Positions 41,292 to 49,219 of a stretch of DNA of 64,000 nucleotides are shown piece after piece (the first letter of the stretch is position 1; each line of letters starts with the position of its first letter). The notes beneath the pieces were generated by a model that ran no database searches, was not told the DNA's origin, and was given only the letters and a program-made list of their open reading frames with translations. Position numbers and translations under genes: made by a program. Source of the stretch: an uncultured Prevotellaceae bacterium (lineage in GTDB: Bacteria; Bacteroidota; Bacteroidia; Bacteroidales; Muribaculaceae); the NCBI GenBank assembly GCA_900317325.1, contig ONGE01000001.1, positions 97,891 through 161,890 of the forward strand. Reading direction: 5' to 3'.

Positions 41292-41861
41292 ATGAGCGAC
41301 GACGACTTCCTCCCCCAGCGGGGGAACTACCGCTAACTCATTGCCTATCAAAAGGCCGAGTGCATCTACGACATCACCTACTACTTCGCTCATCACTTCC
41401 TGTCTAAAGGCGACCGCACCATTGACCAAATGGTCCAGGCAGCACGCAGTGGCAAACAGAACATCGCCGAAGGCTGTTCAGCATCAACAACATCACGAGA
41501 AACCGAGTTAAAGCTCATCAACGTAGCCCGAGCCAGTTTCCAAGAACTGCTGGTTGACTATGAAGACTACCTGCGTGTCAAGAACCTTGAACAGTGGGAC
41601 AGCGACCATCCCAAAGCCATCCACTCACGACAAGTCAGCCTCCAGCACAACGACTCGGCTTTCTACCGTGAAGCCATCACCCGCACGAGCGACGTGAATA
41701 TCGCCAACATCGCCATCACCCTACTCCATCAAGAAGATTACCTGTTGCGCAAACTCATCGACCGCCTCAAGCAAGCCTTCCTTGAGCAAGGCGGCATCCG
41801 CGAAGAAATGTATCGCGCCCGCACCCAATACCGTCAAAACCACCCCAACAAACCCGACTAA
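41292..41861 (+). pseudogene. Four-helix-bundle suffix-domain protein interrupted by an in-frame stop
   Basis: From the ATG at 41292 the frame reads MSDDDFLPQRGNYR, a TAA at 41334-41336, then LIAYQKAECIYDITYYFAHHF and on without a gap to the stop at 41861. The part after the stop matches the 23S rRNA-intervening-sequence / four-helix-bundle family with its suffix domain (MVQAARSGKQNIAEG, then KLINVARASFQELLVDYEDYL). A Bacteroidetes member would have one sense codon where the TAA stands. If translated from the next Met (41430, 143 residues) the first helix would be lost. Role of the family is unclear; in other bacteria members sit within rRNA intervening sequences, but here it is not in an rRNA gene. 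Confidence 0.8.
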
Positions 41862-41871
41862 GACAACCACC

Positions 41872-41925
41872 CCAATCACCCCAATCAGTCAAATCACCCC
41901 AATTTGACCAATCAGCCCAATTGAT
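41872..41925. repeat. Intergenic nonamer array, CCAATTNGA type (6 units)
   Basis: Six 9-nt units in phase (CCAATCACC, CCAATCAGT, CAAATCACC, CCAATTTGA, CCAATCAGC, CCAATTGAT) starting 10 nt after the stop of the broken four-helix gene. From here to the tracrRNA terminator (42001) nothing else is seen. Confidence 0.8.
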
Positions 41926-42000
41926 AGAAAACAACCCAGCAGAGCCAAAATACGGCACCGTCCTGCCTCTTTTTTTGCAGAATAAAAACTAGTTATAAAA

Positions 42001-42083
42001 TAAAAAACTCCCACCGAAGCGGGAGTATAGGTGTTACCCTTCGGCCATGAAGGCCTTATTGTGATAAGATGTAGGAATCTTAT
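42001..42083 (-). ncRNA. tracrRNA of the type II-C CRISPR locus
   Basis: Read on the minus strand, the RNA starts about 42083. Its anti-repeat (42079-42058, containing TTCCTACATC and CACAA) pairs with the 5' part of the CRISPR repeat: GATGTAGGAA pairs fully, then two mismatches, then the TTGTGG end with one wobble. A nexus-like hairpin follows (GGCC / GGCC, 42055-42043), and then a Rho-independent terminator ACTCCC / GGGAGT (42026-42007) with six U. Length is about 80 nt. It is transcribed away from cas9, and its orientation requires crRNA from the plus strand of the array, in agreement with the array polarity. Exact ends are predicted only. Confidence 0.85.
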
Positions 42084-42088
42084 GGATG

Positions 42089-42120
42089 CAAAATTATAAC
42101 TATTATTTTGCAGAGTCAAA
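42089..42120 (-). promoter_or_regulatory. Promoter of the tracrRNA
   Basis: On the minus strand TTTG (42120-42117), exactly 20 nt, TAATTTTG (42096-42089): a full match to the Bacteroidetes consensus, ending about 6 nt before the predicted tracrRNA 5' end. It lies in the 80-bp divergent gap to cas9, whose own promoter is less clear (TTATTTTG at 42103-42110 on the plus strand). Confidence 0.85.
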
Positions 42121-42166
42121 CATTTGAAGTAAATTTACCGAAAATTAACAATTAAAACATCACTTT

Positions 42167-45100
42167 ATGGAAAGAATACTAGGAATTGACACAGGAACTA
42201 ACAGCCTTGGATGGGCAATAATTGAAAAGAATGATAACGGTGAAACCAAATTATTGCACAAAGGAACAAACATATTTACCGAAGGTGTAAAAATCGAAAA
42301 AGGCATTGAATCATCTAAAGCCGCCGAGCGCACCGAGCACAGGGCTTTACGAAAGCACTATTGGCGGCGAAAAGTAAGGAAAATTCGCCTACTTACAGTG
42401 CTAGTTAAGAATCGTTTATGCCCTCCTGTTGACACCGAGCAATTGCGCGATTGGCGTCTGAAGGGCATCTATCCTCATGATGAAGAATTCTTGGACTGGC
42501 AACGCACTGAAGATAAGAATAATGTAAATCCCTATCAGTTCAGGCACATCTGTTTGACACAAAAATTGGATTTATCAAACTTGACTCAACGATATATCTT
42601 GGGGCGAGCCCTGTATCACCTGAACCAACGCCGAGGATTTCTGAGCAACCGAAAAGAGACGACCAAGGCATCCGAGGGAGCAGTCAGCGAAGGAATCAGC
42701 AGCCTGACTGCCGAGATGCAAGCTGCAGGATGTGAGTTTTTAGGCGAATACTTCTACCGTCTCTATCAATCAGGAGAGAAAATCAGGAACCACTATACCG
42801 CACGCAATGAGCATTATCTTAAAGAATTCAATGCTATTTGCGAGAAACAACAATTGCCCGAAGATTTGGTGACCGACCTCAGGCGCGCCATCTTCTTCCA
42901 GCGCCCGCTAAAGTCTCAGAAAGGCACTGTCGGCACATGCGCTTTTGAAAAGGGCAAGACTCGCTGTCCGGCATCACATCCCCTGTTTGAGGAGTTCCGT
43001 CTTTACAGTTTCCTGAACAATATCAAAATCAAGACGCCTGATGATGCCGATATGCGCTACTTGACGGGTGATGAAAAGGCTGCCATCCTGCCCCTTTTCA
43101 AGAAATATCGGAAAAGCAAGCACACCTTTAATTTTGAGGACATCGCCAAGAAACTTGCCGGTAAAGGAAAATACATGTATTTCCGTGACAAGGATGACAA
43201 GCCTTACCAGTTCAATTACCAAATGGATACTCCTGTGCCCATTAGCACAGTTACTGCTCAACTCGAAGAAATCTTCGGTGAAAATTGGCTGGAAGGTGCT
43301 TGCGAAGTCTATACTCTCGCCGATGGGAAAACGCCGTTCCAGATCATGAACGATATCTGGCATGCCCTGTTCTTCTTTGACGATGAAGAGAAACTGAAAT
43401 TATTTGCCATAGATCGCCTGCAGTTGAGTGATGAGGATGCCGAAAAATTTGCTCATATCTCAATGCCCAATGATTATGCCTCGCTCAGCCTCAAGGCCAT
43501 CCGCAAGATATTGCCTTTCCTCAAAGATTATGGCCTCATCTATTCACAAGCCGTCTTTCTGGCCAACCTAGATGAAGTGTTGCCTTCTTATTTCATAAGG
43601 CATGAGGACGAACATCAAAAGGCCATCAACGAGGCTATTGATGTCATTCTTTCCTATGGTAGCAAGCAAGATGAGCGTCCACTTGAGATCTATTTCAAGG
43701 ATTACTTGATGACAAGATATGAAGAATATGGCATCAAAGAAGATTTGCCGAAACTTTATCACCCGTCGATGATGGAGCAGTACCCTCGTGTGCAACCCAG
43801 TGATGCCGGCATCTACCAGTTGGGCTCTCCTCGCATCAGCAGCGTGAGGAATCCGATGGCAATGCGCTCCATGTTCAGGTTGCGCAAGGTGGTGAATCTG
43901 CTCTTGGCAAAAGGATATATTGACAAGGACACCAAGGTTCACATCGAGTTTTCTAGAGACCTCAACGATGCTAACCGCCGTTGGGCGATTCAGCAGTGGC
44001 AACGCCAACAGGAGAAAAACAAAGAGGAAATCAGGAAGAGAATTCAGGAAGATGCCCACATCGACAATCCTACCGATACCGACATCCTGAAGTACCAGTT
44101 ATGGGAAGAGCAGAACCACATCTGTATTTATACAGGCAATCAAATCGGGATTTCTGATTTCCTGTGTTCAAATCCCAAATATGATATCGAGCACACTGTT
44201 CCCCAAAGTGCAGGCGGAGACAGCACCAAGATGAACCTGACATTATGTGAGTGCGCTTATAACCGCAAGACAAAAAAGACTAAACTGCCATCAGAACTGC
44301 CCCATCACGAAGCAATGTTGCAACGCATCGAGCACTGGAATGAGCGGGCCGAAGAGCTGAGCAAGCGCATTCGCAAACTCAAGGGTAGCCGTGCCGCGAC
44401 AAAAGAGGAAAAGGACAGCATCATTCGCCGTCGCCACCAGCTGTCGCTGGAACGGGATTACTGTAGGGGCAAGTACAAGAGATTCACAATGACCGAAGTA
44501 CCCGAGGGCTTCTCGCGCCGTCAGGGAACCGATATCAGTGTCATCTCACGCTATGCCCGCATGTACCTGAAGTCAGTCTTTGACAGAGTCTATATTGTCA
44601 AGGGCATCGCCACATCCGATTTCAGGAAGATGTGGGGCATACAGGAAGAATATACGGCCAAGGAGCGTGTCAATCATGTTCACCACTGCATTGATGCCAT
44701 CACCATCGCTTGCATTGATAAAGTGCAATACGACAAACTGGCTCAATTCTATCATGAAGAGGATGACTATCGACAGGGCAAGGGCAAGAAACCGCAATTC
44801 GAGAAACCGTGGCCAACATTTGTCGCCGACATCAAACACATTCAGGACGAACTCCTTGTAGCACATTACGCCAAGGACAATATGCCCAAGCATACAAAAA
44901 AGAAAGGAGGCTATAACTTCATTCAAGGTGATACAGCCCGAGGCTCACTCCATAACGATACCTATTATGGGGCCATTGAACTTGAAGGTGACATCAAATA
45001 TGTTGTCCGCAAGAGTCTGGATATGCTCGAGGCAAAAGATGTGGACAAGATTGTGGATGAAGAGGTTAAGCGCAAAGTCAATGAGGCGATTGCTGCCCAT

Positions 45101-45778
45101 GGCAGCCTCAAGGCAGCCGTCGAAGCAACCATCTGGATGAATGAGGAAAAACATATTCCCATCAAAAAAGTAAGACTGTTTGCAAACGCTGTTACCCGAC
45201 CCATCAACATCCGCCAGCATCGCGACAAGTCAAGGCATGAGCATAAACGTCAATTCCATGTGCAGAACGACCGCAACTACATGATGGCAATCTATGTCGG
45301 CCTTGATGAACGCGGCAAGGAGAAACGCGCATTTGAACTCATCAGTAACATCAGGGCCGCCAACTTCTACCGAAGGAGTGGACAAAATGCTGCAGAGAAT
45401 AAGCAGCTGGTGCCCGATGCCAAAAATGGATTACCATTAAAATATGAATTAAAAATCGGCACAATGGTTCTCTTGTATGAGAACAATCCTGACGAGATTT
45501 GGAATGCAAATCAACAAGAATTGCAACGTCGATTATATAAGGTGACAGGTCTTTCATCAATGCTTATTCAGTCTCATGCCTATGGAATAATGGCAATGAT
45601 ACATAATCAGGATGCAAGGCCTAGCAGCATTATTAAACTAAAGAATGGAGCGTATACCTCCGGAGAAGAATTCCGCCCAGGCATTAAGATGCTACATACT
45701 CAATTCAAGGCTCTTATTAATGGTGTGGACTTTGAACTGAATGACTTGGGAGAAATCAGGAGAATAAGCAATGATTAA
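42167..45778 (+). CDS. cas9: Type II-C CRISPR RNA-guided endonuclease Cas9
   Basis: 1203 residues. RuvC-I is ILGIDTGTNSLGW with D8. An Arg-rich bridge helix follows (ERTEHRALRKHYWRRK), then the alpha-helical recognition lobe. RuvC-II is KVHIEFSRDLND with E594; the HNH domain is ICIYTGNQIG...YDIEHTVPQS with H676 and the later NRKTKKTK segment; RuvC-III is VNHVHHCIDAITIA with H840 and D843. All catalytic residues are present, so the nuclease should be active. The C-terminal part (about 980-1203) is the wedge/PAM-interacting region. The lack of csn2 or cas4 makes it II-C. The last 8 nt overlap cas1. Size is mid-range for Cas9 and above many II-C proteins. PAM unknown. Confidence 0.97.
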   Translation: MERILGIDTGTNSLGWAIIEKNDNGETKLLHKGTNIFTEGVKIEKGIESSKAAERTEHRALRKHYWRRKVRKIRLLTVLVKNRLCPPVDTEQLRDWRLKGIYPHDEEFLDWQRTEDKNNVNPYQFRHICLTQKLDLSNLTQRYILGRALYHLNQRRGFLSNRKETTKASEGAVSEGISSLTAEMQAAGCEFLGEYFYRLYQSGEKIRNHYTARNEHYLKEFNAICEKQQLPEDLVTDLRRAIFFQRPLKSQKGTVGTCAFEKGKTRCPASHPLFEEFRLYSFLNNIKIKTPDDADMRYLTGDEKAAILPLFKKYRKSKHTFNFEDIAKKLAGKGKYMYFRDKDDKPYQFNYQMDTPVPISTVTAQLEEIFGENWLEGACEVYTLADGKTPFQIMNDIWHALFFFDDEEKLKLFAIDRLQLSDEDAEKFAHISMPNDYASLSLKAIRKILPFLKDYGLIYSQAVFLANLDEVLPSYFIRHEDEHQKAINEAIDVILSYGSKQDERPLEIYFKDYLMTRYEEYGIKEDLPKLYHPSMMEQYPRVQPSDAGIYQLGSPRISSVRNPMAMRSMFRLRKVVNLLLAKGYIDKDTKVHIEFSRDLNDANRRWAIQQWQRQQEKNKEEIRKRIQEDAHIDNPTDTDILKYQLWEEQNHICIYTGNQIGISDFLCSNPKYDIEHTVPQSAGGDSTKMNLTLCECAYNRKTKKTKLPSELPHHEAMLQRIEHWNERAEELSKRIRKLKGSRAATKEEKDSIIRRRHQLSLERDYCRGKYKRFTMTEVPEGFSRRQGTDISVISRYARMYLKSVFDRVYIVKGIATSDFRKMWGIQEEYTAKERVNHVHHCIDAITIACIDKVQYDKLAQFYHEEDDYRQGKGKKPQFEKPWPTFVADIKHIQDELLVAHYAKDNMPKHTKKKGGYNFIQGDTARGSLHNDTYYGAIELEGDIKYVVRKSLDMLEAKDVDKIVDEEVKRKVNEAIAAHGSLKAAVEATIWMNEEKHIPIKKVRLFANAVTRPINIRQHRDKSRHEHKRQFHVQNDRNYMMAIYVGLDERGKEKRAFELISNIRAANFYRRSGQNAAENKQLVPDAKNGLPLKYELKIGTMVLLYENNPDEIWNANQQELQRRLYKVTGLSSMLIQSHAYGIMAMIHNQDARPSSIIKLKNGAYTSGEEFRPGIKMLHTQFKALINGVDFELNDLGEIRRISND

Positions 45779-46658
45779 GCAGACGCTGATGTTCACTTCA
45801 CCAGTTGCCTTATCCCTAAAATATGGGCAACTGGTGGTGAAGAGCCTCGAAGATGATAAAACCCTCACAAGGCCAGTCGAAGATATCGGCTTTGTCGTCA
45901 TTGACAATCCCATGATATCATTAACCATTCCGTTGCTGAATGAACTGGCGGCCAATAATGTGGCGGTCATCATCTGTGACAAGAAGCAGATGCCTCAGGC
46001 TATGCTGCAGCCGCTTGCGGGCAACACGACCCTTCAAGAAACTTATAAGTTCCAGATTGAGGCATCATCACCGCTCAAAAAGCAGATGTGGAAGCAATTG
46101 GTAGAGGCCAAAATCAAGAATCAGGCTGCTTTACTTGACCGGGTGGGTAAAGAGGGGAAAATGTTGAAACCCTTTTATTCAAATGTGAAATCAGGCGACA
46201 CCGATAACCGAGAAGGTGCTGCCGCCCGTGTCTACTGGTCACAGTTGTTTGATGACAGTTTCAAGCGTGAACGTGAAGGAGACTCGCCCAATCAGTTCCT
46301 GAATTATGGCTATACCATTCTTAGGGCGGCAGTGGCCAGAGCTCTAGTCGGATCAGGATTGTATCCCGCATTTGGCATCTTTCACCGCAACAGGTACAAT
46401 GCCTTTCCCCTTGCCGATGACGTGATGGAGCCTTACCGTCCATTTGTGGACGAGGTGGTTTATGCCCTCTGCCAGAACGACAAGAATACCGATTTAGACA
46501 AAAATGTAAAGAGCTGACTGCTTCGGGTATTGTTTGCAGATGTAAAAATCGGAAGAATGACGCGACCACTGGAGGTTGCATTGTCGTTGACAACGGCTTC
46601 AGTGGTCAAGATGTTCAAGGGTGACACCCAAAAGCTTTCTCTCCCCCAGATGGCATGA
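45771..46658 (+). pseudogene. cas1: CRISPR integrase Cas1, interrupted by an in-frame TGA
   Basis: The ORF runs from the ATG at 45771 (overlapping the cas9 end) to a TGA at 46515-46517, giving 248 residues. The same frame continues past that TGA with LLRVLFADVKIGRMTRPLEV and on to QKLSLPQMA and a stop at 46656-46658, which overlaps the cas2 ATG as ATGA. The restored length of 295 codons is normal for a type II Cas1. The likely metal ligands E148 (DNREGAAARVYW), H205 (FGIFHRNRYN) and E220 lie before the stop; the lost 47 residues are the C-terminal helices. So spacer integration is probably impaired unless the stop is read through or is a sequencing error. Confidence 0.9.
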
Positions 46659-47002
46659 GTGAAAATAGAATAAATGCTTATCGCATCATGTGGCTTTTTG
46701 TCTTCTTTGATTTACCTGTCGTAACCAAGAAACAAAGGAAAGCAGCAACGCTGTTTCGTAATAACTTGATGAAGGATGGCTTTGTCATGTTCCAGTATTC
46801 GATTTACATCAGGCACTGCGGGTCGCTAGAGAGTCTGCAGGTGCACGCTAAACGAGTAAAACTGTTTGTTCCAAATGAGGGGAAAGTGAGTGTATTAAGT
46901 GTGACTGATAAACAATATGGTGATATCATCAATTATTGGGGCAAGAAAGAAAAAGGCAAAAAGCCCCCAACTAAACCTGTGCAGTTAGAAATAATTTGGT
47001 AA
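46655..47002 (+). CDS. cas2: CRISPR-associated protein Cas2
   Basis: 115 residues; forms the central dimer of the Cas1-Cas2 integration complex. The ferredoxin-like start YRIMWLFVFFDLPVVTKKQRK contains the conserved Asp after the first strand, followed by FRNNLMKDGFVMFQYSIYIRHC and the VLSVTDKQYGDI strand. The ATG overlaps the original cas1 stop codon by ATGA, implying translational coupling that is now broken by the premature stop in cas1. The array begins 88 bp downstream. Confidence 0.94.
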   Translation: MSENRINAYRIMWLFVFFDLPVVTKKQRKAATLFRNNLMKDGFVMFQYSIYIRHCGSLESLQVHAKRVKLFVPNEGKVSVLSVTDKQYGDIINYWGKKEKGKKPPTKPVQLEIIW

Positions 47003-47090
47003 TTTTGCCACTAAATACTGCATCTATTGCCACTTCTTAATTGAAGATTGATTCATATCTTATTGGAAATAAGACGGATATCCGAATTAG
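47003..47090 (+). promoter_or_regulatory. CRISPR leader
   Basis: An 88-nt AT-rich stretch between the cas2 stop and the first repeat. Because the degenerate repeat is at the far end of the array, this side should be the leader. No consensus promoter is visible, so the array may be transcribed with the cas operon or from a weak internal start. Confidence 0.6.
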
Positions 47091-47503
47091 GTTGTGGTTT
47101 GATGTAGGAACCAGATAAGATACAACAGCGATTACGGTTACTATGGCTCATCCTCTGTTGTGGTTTGATGTAGGAACCAGATAAGATACAACGCCGATGA
47201 GAGCTCAGGCTATGACGGCACGGTTGTGGTTTGATGTAGGAACCAGATAAGATACAACGAGGGTTAGTAATTTCCTCGGCATTAATCGGTTGTGGTTTGA
47301 TGTAGGAACCAGATAAGATACAACTCTTCAATGCGACCTATGGCGATGACTCGGTTGTGGTTTGATGTAGGAACCAGATAAGATACAACACGACGAGAAG
47401 CTCATACGCTTGCGCATAGTTGTGGTTTGATGTAGGAACCAGATAAGATACAACCATAATTTCAGAAAAATAGATATTGATAGGTTGTGGCTTGATGTAG
47501 GAA
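47091..47503 (+). CRISPR. CRISPR array, type II-C, 36-bp repeat, 6 spacers
   Basis: Six identical 36-bp repeats start at 47091, 47157, 47223, 47289, 47354 and 47419. They begin GTTGTGGTTTGATGTAGGAA and end CCAGATAAGATACAAC. A seventh repeat at 47484 has one change within its first 20 nt and diverges after that, marking the old end. Spacers are 30, 30, 30, 29, 29 and 29 nt long from the leader side. The 5' part of the repeat pairs with the tracrRNA anti-repeat, so the plus strand is the crRNA strand. None of the spacers was recognised. Confidence 0.97.
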
Positions 47504-47524
47504 ACTAAAGAGTTACATATAACA

Positions 47525-47564
47525 AACTTGGGCAACGGGCTTTTTAGGGCCTGTTGTCCAAGTT
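47525..47564. terminator. Hairpin terminating the array and the convergent C69 gene
   Basis: AACTTGG-g-CAAC pairs with GTTG-t-CCAAGTT, with a second inner pairing GGGC/GGGCC region and T-run in the loop. It lies between the CRISPR array and the minus-strand dipeptidase gene. Confidence 0.7.
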
Positions 47565-47605
47565 GTTGTTTATTGGTTGTTTGGGTTGTTTGAGAGAGTG
47601 GCGGG

Positions 47606-49219
47606 TTAGAAGCCTTTCCAGGTTTGGAGCCAGAAGTCGTGGGCCATCTGTTGCCAGCGGTAGGCGGCGGCGCCGAGCATGTCCTGGGTGTAGTTGTTGA
47701 GGTAACGGGCGGCTTTGTCCTTTTCCTGGGCGTTGAGTTGCTGCCAGGTGGTTTCCACCATGGGGAGTTCGCTCAGGCCTTTCTCGAGGAAATGGTCGCG
47801 GGCGGGCTCAAGGGTCTTGCGGAAAACGCCCCAGCGCAGCGAAGCCAATCGGTTGGCCTTGCGGAACTGCCACAGGGGGCTGTTATCGTCCTCGGCGCTG
47901 TGGCCGCAGATTTTCAGCGATGCGGGCAGGTCGGTGTTGCCGCAGAAGACGGGGAACCTGGGGCTCTCGCCGGGGTTGTCGAAGGCGATCCATGCCACAC
48001 CGCCCACCTCGTCGGGGAGCCAGGAGCGCAGCTGGATGACGGTGCTGTAGGAGCACCAGGGAACGCTGACGGTGCGTGTCCACTTCATCGCCGAGTCACC
48101 CATGGCGTAATACATGGCCAACTGCTCGTTGGTGATCCAGGGGTTGGCAACGGGCGAGACGATGCTGTCAGGCTGATTCTCGACGAGGTTGCCCTGCTTG
48201 TCCTTGCGCTTGGGGTTGGGGATCTTGTGGCGGGCACTCAGGTCGAGCGCTGTGCCCTCGTAGTAGCTGCCCAGCAGTCGCGACACGTCCTCGACGCTCA
48301 CCTTCTTGTCGGGCTTGACGCTCACGGGCAGGTTCTCGATGCTGTCGTCCAGTCCCAGCGACGGAGCGAGCTGCTGCATGATGTAGAGTTCGCGGGTGCT
48401 GTAGTTCTTGACTTCTTTCTTGTAGTTGGTGCCGCTGTAGGCCTTCCAGAAGCAGAAAGGTTCCTTGCCGTCCCACAGTTTCAGTTTGCGGGCCACGTCA
48501 AACACGTTGTCCGAGGCCATATAGTGGTCGGGGTCGCTCAGGTCGAGGGCACCGATGCGCGAGATATTGGCCGAAACGGCGATCTCGTCATCGGGGATGC
48601 GCACGGCAGCCCACACGGCTCCCACCTTCTTGGGACCCTCGCCGAAGACCTCGAACAGCCACGCCTCGTCCTTGTCGGCAATGGTGAGGCACTCGCCGCT
48701 GTCGCCATAGCCGTATTTCTTGGCCAAGTCACCCATCAGGCGGATGGCCTCGCGCGCCGTGGTGCAACGCTCCAGGGCGATGCGCGAGAGTTCCTCGATC
48801 ATGAAAATGCCCGCCTTGTTGCGCAACGTGTCGCGTCCCGAGATTGTCGTCTCGCCCATGGCCAACTGCTTCTCGTTGAGGCAGGGATAGGCGGTGTCGA
48901 GGAAGCGATAGGTGTGGCGCACCTGCGGGATGACGCCCAGGCGCGGCATATTGGTGCTGTCGGCAGCGCTGCGGGTATGGAAGCGGTTCTTGTAAACTGC
49001 GGTGACCGTGTCGCGCTCGTAGTCGCGGGCCGGCACGATGGCCATCCAGGTGCGGTAGCGCGCGTCACAGGTGTGTGACGTGATGACCGAGCCGTCGGCA
49101 CTGGCCTTCTTGCCCACCATGATGCTGGTGCAGGATTCTGTCATGCGCTCAGCGTCCTGAGCGTGGATTGCGGTAGCGAAAGCCATCATCAGCAGGATGG
49201 CGATAAAGCATTTCTTCAT
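47606..49219 (-). CDS. Secreted C69 family dipeptidase
   Basis: 537 residues, Ntn-hydrolase of peptidase family C69 (dipeptidase A-like). The signal peptide MKKCFIAILLMMAFATAIHA is followed after a short stretch by the nucleophile C30 in TESCTSIMVGKKASADGSVI. In the maturation of this family the new N-terminus is that Cys. Other family segments: HTCDARYRTW, MGETTISGRD, DSGECLTIADKDEAWLFEV, and AVWAAVRIPDDEIAVSANISRI. Probably cleaves dipeptides in the periplasm. It has its own promoter, and the next genes on the same strand end 209 bp upstream. Confidence 0.92.
   Translation of the reverse strand: MKKCFIAILLMMAFATAIHAQDAERMTESCTSIMVGKKASADGSVITSHTCDARYRTWMAIVPARDYERDTVTAVYKNRFHTRSAADSTNMPRLGVIPQVRHTYRFLDTAYPCLNEKQLAMGETTISGRDTLRNKAGIFMIEELSRIALERCTTAREAIRLMGDLAKKYGYGDSGECLTIADKDEAWLFEVFGEGPKKVGAVWAAVRIPDDEIAVSANISRIGALDLSDPDHYMASDNVFDVARKLKLWDGKEPFCFWKAYSGTNYKKEVKNYSTRELYIMQQLAPSLGLDDSIENLPVSVKPDKKVSVEDVSRLLGSYYEGTALDLSARHKIPNPKRKDKQGNLVENQPDSIVSPVANPWITNEQLAMYYAMGDSAMKWTRTVSVPWCSYSTVIQLRSWLPDEVGGVAWIAFDNPGESPRFPVFCGNTDLPASLKICGHSAEDDNSPLWQFRKANRLASLRWGVFRKTLEPARDHFLEKGLSELPMVETTWQQLNAQEKDKAARYLNNYTQDMLGAAAYRWQQMAHDFWLQTWKGF

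Follow-up and report, generated by a model that had tools for sequence, protein, structure and literature searches.

Background

Loci in which Cas9 stands without the genes for spacer acquisition are already known. In Campylobacter, the type II-C loci of C. coli clade 3 and of CampyICE1 lack both cas1 and cas2, while Cas9 and short arrays are kept; for CampyICE1 the authors consider that new spacers can possibly not be acquired, and that Cas1 and Cas2 borrowed from elsewhere are conceivable (PMC4607530, PMC8743540). Within the Bacteroidales, type I-B loci of Bacteroides fragilis carry a truncated cas1, and the authors presume the truncation to be later than the acquisition of the spacers (PMC5704556). 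A third case is experimental: deletion of cas1 from the II-C locus of Flavobacterium columnare was followed by acquisition in 0 of 12 cultures (PMC8092290).

Here we analyse a locus that resembles each of these systems in one respect and departs from it in another. It lies in a window of 64,000 nucleotides from contig ONGE01000001.1 of an uncultured Prevotellaceae bacterium (assembly GCA_900317325.1), the source bacterium being related to rumen Prevotella-like species. As in Campylobacter, a short array and Cas9 persist; but there the adaptation genes are absent altogether, whereas here cas1 is cut by a single stop and the rest of the gene is still standing. With B. fragilis it shares a truncated cas1 in a member of the same order, though that system is of type I-B and the deletion there took effector genes as well. 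F. columnare likewise offers a II-C locus of the Bacteroidota that has lost cas1 and in which acquisition was not seen, but the mutant was engineered in the laboratory and the mutation in the window is natural. A literature search of partial coverage returned nothing on this locus or on the cas1 hairpin described below, and a search on truncation of the Cas1 C-terminus also found nothing. The explanation that we favour, and hold to be quite probable from the sequence comparisons given here, is that of a II-C locus in which a nonsense mutation in cas1 would have abolished acquisition and spared interference, with separate deletions having struck the loci of relatives.

Results and discussion

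An in-frame TGA divides cas1

By its sequence the locus is of type II-C, with cas1 and cas2 taking up the interval from cas9 to the array. The cas9 gene (42167..45778, plus strand) is open and encodes 1203 aa that match TIGR01865 with 454.8 bits and contain the Pfam RuvC_III and HNH_4 domains. Its end is overlapped by 8 nt by the start of the cas1 frame (45771..46517, plus strand), which runs for 248 aa up to a TGA at 46515-46517. Behind this TGA the same frame continues as a remnant tail (46518..46658, plus strand) of 46 sense codons, LLRVLFADVKIGRMTRPLEVALSL...PQMA, to a second TGA at 46656-46658. This original stop and the start of cas2 form the common ATGA; cas2 itself (46655..47002, plus strand) is open, encodes 115 aa and matches TIGR01573 with 58.2 bits. 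The type II Cas1 model TIGR03639 scores the pre-stop protein at 289 bits and the frame with an X placed at the stop at 303 bits. A chance reading frame behind the TGA was ruled out because the 46 codons align with the C-terminus of 16 near-full-length relatives, and the tail is free of indels and of any second disabling change. The residues E148, H205 and E220 all precede the stop, and they are invariant in a 25-row Cas1 alignment that has the truncated window protein among its rows.

For the interval 46515-46658, the first-pass annotation had proposed that cas1 is cut by an in-frame TGA with the remainder of the gene intact up to the cas2 ATG, that the 46 sense codons end in an ATGA overlap, and that the short protein retains the three residues named above. 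The reading frames, their coordinates and the alignments bear out each of these points, and the interval proves to be the lost part together with both stops.

Among the genomes searched the stop is seen only here, and it appears young

A scan of genome contigs for Cas1 relatives returned 18 loci, 16 of them with a near-full-length protein of 294-302 aa that is free of internal stops and in each case ends in TGA; the match of the other two (L043 and L044) is limited to the first 26-27 Cas1 residues. The nearest Cas1 is that of L027, from a sister species (Prevotellaceae assembly RUG755), with 90% identity. The stop site is itself variable, with R, C, K, V, E, L or S among the relatives. Of the 397 family genomes searched, 67 gave a type II cas1 match that passed the cut-off (three being fragments at contig ends, in G127, G181 and G370), and an internal stop was seen in the window's genome alone, in a count that is blind to frameshifts. 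The frame is complete in the relatives and continues past the stop in the window, which is the mark of a nonsense pseudogene, and the window cas1 would be a case of ordinary pseudogenisation. When sites in the window were ranked by codon usage alone to look for other interrupted genes, the cas1 site came 43rd of 178.

Comparison with L027 yields a cas1 dN/dS of 0.045 for codons 1-248 and of 0.050 for the 46-codon tail, both ratios being rough because the corresponding dS values are 1.0 and 2.0. The tail behind the stop therefore still looks constrained, and so the TGA is either an error or, as judged from sequence, young relative to the separation of the species. Under the former alternative the gene would really be uninterrupted, the TGA having come from base calling or assembly or representing a minor variant. 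Its presence in only 1 of 67 genomes and the lack of decay in the tail would suit an error, and most records of the scanned relatives are MAGs or assemblies of uncultured isolates, a source that this 44-contig draft also fits. Little evidence speaks directly against an error, but the same module is frequently deleted in the genus, which makes a real loss plausible; we consider the error unlikely. A young nonsense mutation by a single substitution hence appears to be the best reading of the stop. The youth of the mutation had been asserted in the first-pass annotation, and it is supported by the full-length relatives, the apparently constrained tail, the lack of indels and the single Cas1 match in the genome. 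The annotation had also named a pattern that would speak against it, namely close relatives sharing the 248-residue form, and this was looked for among relatives at the species level and not found. A second cas1, for which it had advised a search, was not found in the window's genome (94% complete, 44 contigs), though one could sit in the part of the genome that is missing from it.

What the truncated Cas1 would lack

The predicted model of the L027 Cas1 has a mean pLDDT of 85.9, with 87-94 in the last six ten-residue blocks (residues 241-295). In this model residues 249-295, which correspond to the lost part, comprise half of the helix 244-255, the strands 257-260 and 263-266 and the helix 267-283, and in the 25-row alignment the positions P266, L267, A270, T274 and S277 are conserved at 90% or more. 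Most of this C-terminal part could be aligned by profile with solved Cas1 chains, an alignment that pairs L027 P266 with Y261 of the Streptococcus pyogenes Cas1, the numbering having been counted by hand. In a mutational scan of the S. pyogenes integrase, a contact or pairing of Y261 with Cas2 R102 is modelled and acquisition falls in the Y261A variant, while residues 234-260 broadly tolerate substitution (PMC12216489). That stretch is part of the region lost here, and its tolerance of substitution is not a tolerance of removal.

We picture the course of events as follows. One recent substitution would have created the TGA at codon 249 of cas1, leaving a 248-residue Cas1 that would lack the end of the helical domain and the Cas2-facing strands; from the model, this protein probably fails to work with Cas2. 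The TGA lies 137 nt before the cas2 start. Ribosomes would now end at that distance from a start codon that sits on the old stop, and so the translation of cas2 may fall too. Spacer acquisition would then be lost, and Cas9 would still be able to act with its six stored spacers. In the related loci, separate deletions of cas1 together with some or all of cas2 would have led to a comparable condition.

A competing possibility is that Cas1 still works as an integrase subunit in its 248-residue form, or that readthrough or a re-initiated C-terminal piece supplies enough Cas1. The three invariant residues are indeed all present, and an in-frame TTG (46530) and ATG (46557) behind the TGA offer sites for re-initiation. 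Yet the predicted model gives the lost part a fold and the alignment shows it conserved, the position aligned with the Cas2-facing residue is gone, and a short form is absent from all 16 near-full-length relatives. As for readthrough by selenocysteine, the window's genome, 94% complete, gave seven TIGR00475 (SelB) matches, none of them over the cut-off, which 2 of 14 control genomes pass; selenocysteine at the cas1 TGA is therefore unsupported, and we set it aside. Because the C-terminal strands and helix are missing, a working short Cas1 is unlikely though not impossible, even with the catalytic residues kept, and taken together these ways of preserving function strike us as very improbable.

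The interference side of the locus

Upstream of cas9, on the minus strand, lies a tracrRNA-like element (41990..42095), predicted solely from its letters, with a partial anti-repeat at about 42059-42081 and a terminator-type hairpin at about 42008-42026 that is followed by a U-run. The anti-repeat is anchored by a 10-nt exact match to part of the repeat at 42068-42077 of the plus strand, complementary on the minus strand, and the wider pairing was drawn by eye. The element folds with an MFE of -28.0 (z -3.7), and the stretch 41998-42166 is 91% identical to that of L027. Rfam gave no match within 41500-47700, and ARAGORN no tRNA in the window.

Downstream of cas2, a repeat search delineated the CRISPR array (47091..47519, plus strand) as six identical 36-nt repeats and a degenerate seventh, which gives the six spacers already counted in the first-pass annotation. 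Allowing up to 3 mismatches, these six copies of the repeat are the only ones genome-wide. Spacer 5 matches a viral contig stretch (L232, from a 40-kb contig) at 29/29 positions, inside an ORF that matches a phage replication initiation family and whose neighbouring ORFs match the RecT and RecE families. Spacer 2 matches a second viral contig (L230) at 27/30, and a third viral contig is matched over at least the last 20 nt. For the other four spacers the last 20 nt had no exact match in viral_contigs.

At 44-49% GC, the locus (41990-47520) is poorer in GC than the kilobases around it, which have 51-62%. The stretch found downstream of the locus in L027, and also beside it in L043, is on another contig (C8) in the window's genome, so the locus occupies a different chromosomal site from that in the sister. 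This displacement from the site in relatives, along with an array of 6 spacers against 13 (14 repeats) in L027, might be taken as signs of a locus that is decaying as a whole, with Cas9 and the array also out of use and cas1 merely the first gene to be hit. Against such general decay, the dN/dS values relative to L027 are 0.060 for cas9 and 0.045 for cas2; the tracrRNA-like element, the repeats and the catalytic domains are all present; and cas9 remains open, with 1196-1415 aa, in relatives whose cas1 has been deleted. We accordingly regard decay of the entire locus as improbable, and infer from the sequence record that acquisition has been lost and interference retained.

Apparent recurrent loss of cas1 in the genus

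Cas1 searches matched 24 of 101 genomes of the genus, with 20 strong full-length matches and four weak ones to other Cas1 types. Cas9 was found in 25 of the 101 genomes, and one of these loci is cut by a contig end (G037), leaving 24 that are informative: 19 with an uninterrupted cas1, the nonsense case of the window, and four stubs (G049, which is L043, G023, G087 and G009) that keep about the first 22-28 cas1 codons. Thus five of 24 are broken. The stub of G009 has a further stop inside, and the G087 genome encodes a Cas1 of a different type at another place. In the family outside the genus, Cas9 was present in 55 of the searched genomes; in 47 of them Cas1 passes the cut-off and has no stop inside, and seven of the 55 loci are cut by contig ends (G243 being judged from coordinates). 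One further genome, G293, in which cas9 itself carries a stop, belongs to neither group. By Fisher's test the excess of broken cas1 in the genus (5/24) has a p of 0.003 against 0/47 and of 0.014 against 1/48. With the window locus, which prompted the search, set aside (4/23), the values are 0.010 (0/47) and 0.035 (1/48).

A further stub is seen in L044 (HAN087), where, as in L043, the start of cas1 is joined directly to the later part of cas2. The six broken loci are scattered over a quick Cas9 tree (38 rows, with long branches flagged and L037 left out as too short), such that six changes are needed, four of them forced by well-supported branches. These distributions suggest that loss of adaptation recurs in one genus, as far as sequence can tell.

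In the order, Cas9 occurs in 149 of 393 genomes, and 80 of these loci were examined. An open cas1 on the same strand is present in 71, and L175 has it on the opposite strand; cas1 is broken in L164, L178 and L189, L193 keeps only the end of cas2 (by eye), no cas1 was found in L195 and L208, and in L160 and L166 the contig ends within the locus. In L164, from a single-contig genome (G669), the cas1 frame breaks after about residue 191 in what appears to be an internal deletion, and the gene is followed by an open cas2-like frame and by repeats. In L195, L189, L208 and L160 (the last cut by the contig end) an ORF follows cas9 where no intact cas1 is nearby. By their motifs these four ORFs might be REP-associated transposases, a suspicion that Pfam did not support, as it matched none of the four.

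Clustered deletion ends and a predicted hairpin at the start of cas1

The ends of these deletions are more interesting than the window pseudogene itself. Left ends, as estimated from alignments, fall at about cas1 nt 68-93 in G049, G023, G087, G009, HAN087 and L189, with L178, L164 and L193 as exceptions. Where they cluster (L111/L043, L112, L113, L114, L044 and L189), the right ends vary from locus to locus. The cas1 stub abuts a CRISPR repeat in L113 and L114, the repeats of L114 being oppositely oriented.

The 5' end of the window cas1 contains a predicted RNA hairpin (45792..45841, plus strand; MFE -27.6, z -3.9), and over the first 84 nt type II cas1 genes show a position-specific excess of folding in comparison with versions whose synonymous codons are permuted. 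Among 56 cas1 genes (66 from the genus, the family and named relatives, less 10 near-copies), a 60-nt fold window at cas1 nt 24 has a mean z of -1.7, with 19/56 below -2, against +0.2 (2/55) at cas2 starts and -0.2 (3/70, drawn from 17 sequences) in other ORFs; folded from the opposite strand, this cas1 window shows an excess too, at -1.1 (12/56). The signal is weaker in the loci of the order (about -0.9 over 71 loci) than in the genus and family. When 127 genes are pooled, the excess holds with clustering at 75% identity (88 clusters, p 7e-6) and not at 65% (34 clusters, p 0.08). That the hairpin is an element of the cas9 3' end was rejected, as the order signal is alike whatever the distance between cas9 and cas1: the mean z is -0.90 where they adjoin (37 loci), -0.89 at 41-300 nt (12) and -0.86 beyond 300 nt (22). 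Nor is the hairpin supported as the cause of all the deletions: of the six stubs only G049 has a strong one (z -5.4), the values for the other five lying between -1.9 and 0.1; the folded stretch, cas1 nt 10-85, extends in part past the cut.

The stretch in which the left ends gather lies at the edge of the hairpin excess, and in two loci the deletion abuts a repeat end, so that the integrase or the hairpin might conceivably take part in the removal of cas1 and cas2. One could accordingly imagine that the adaptation module of this group is repeatedly and selectively discarded, with cas1 nt 68-93 or thereabouts as a preferred left end and with the integrase or hairpin involved, an idea that we offer as speculative and, at present, rather doubtful. 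If it were true, the nonsense mutation in the window would be one more route to a state of frozen memory.

Conclusions

The apparent recurrence of cas1 loss in the genus makes the cost of adaptation testable, by comparison of the arrays of strains that have cas1 with those of strains that lack it. The window, for its part, provides a clean natural example, young as it seems, of a Cas9 locus in which the memory is kept and the ability to learn has probably been lost.
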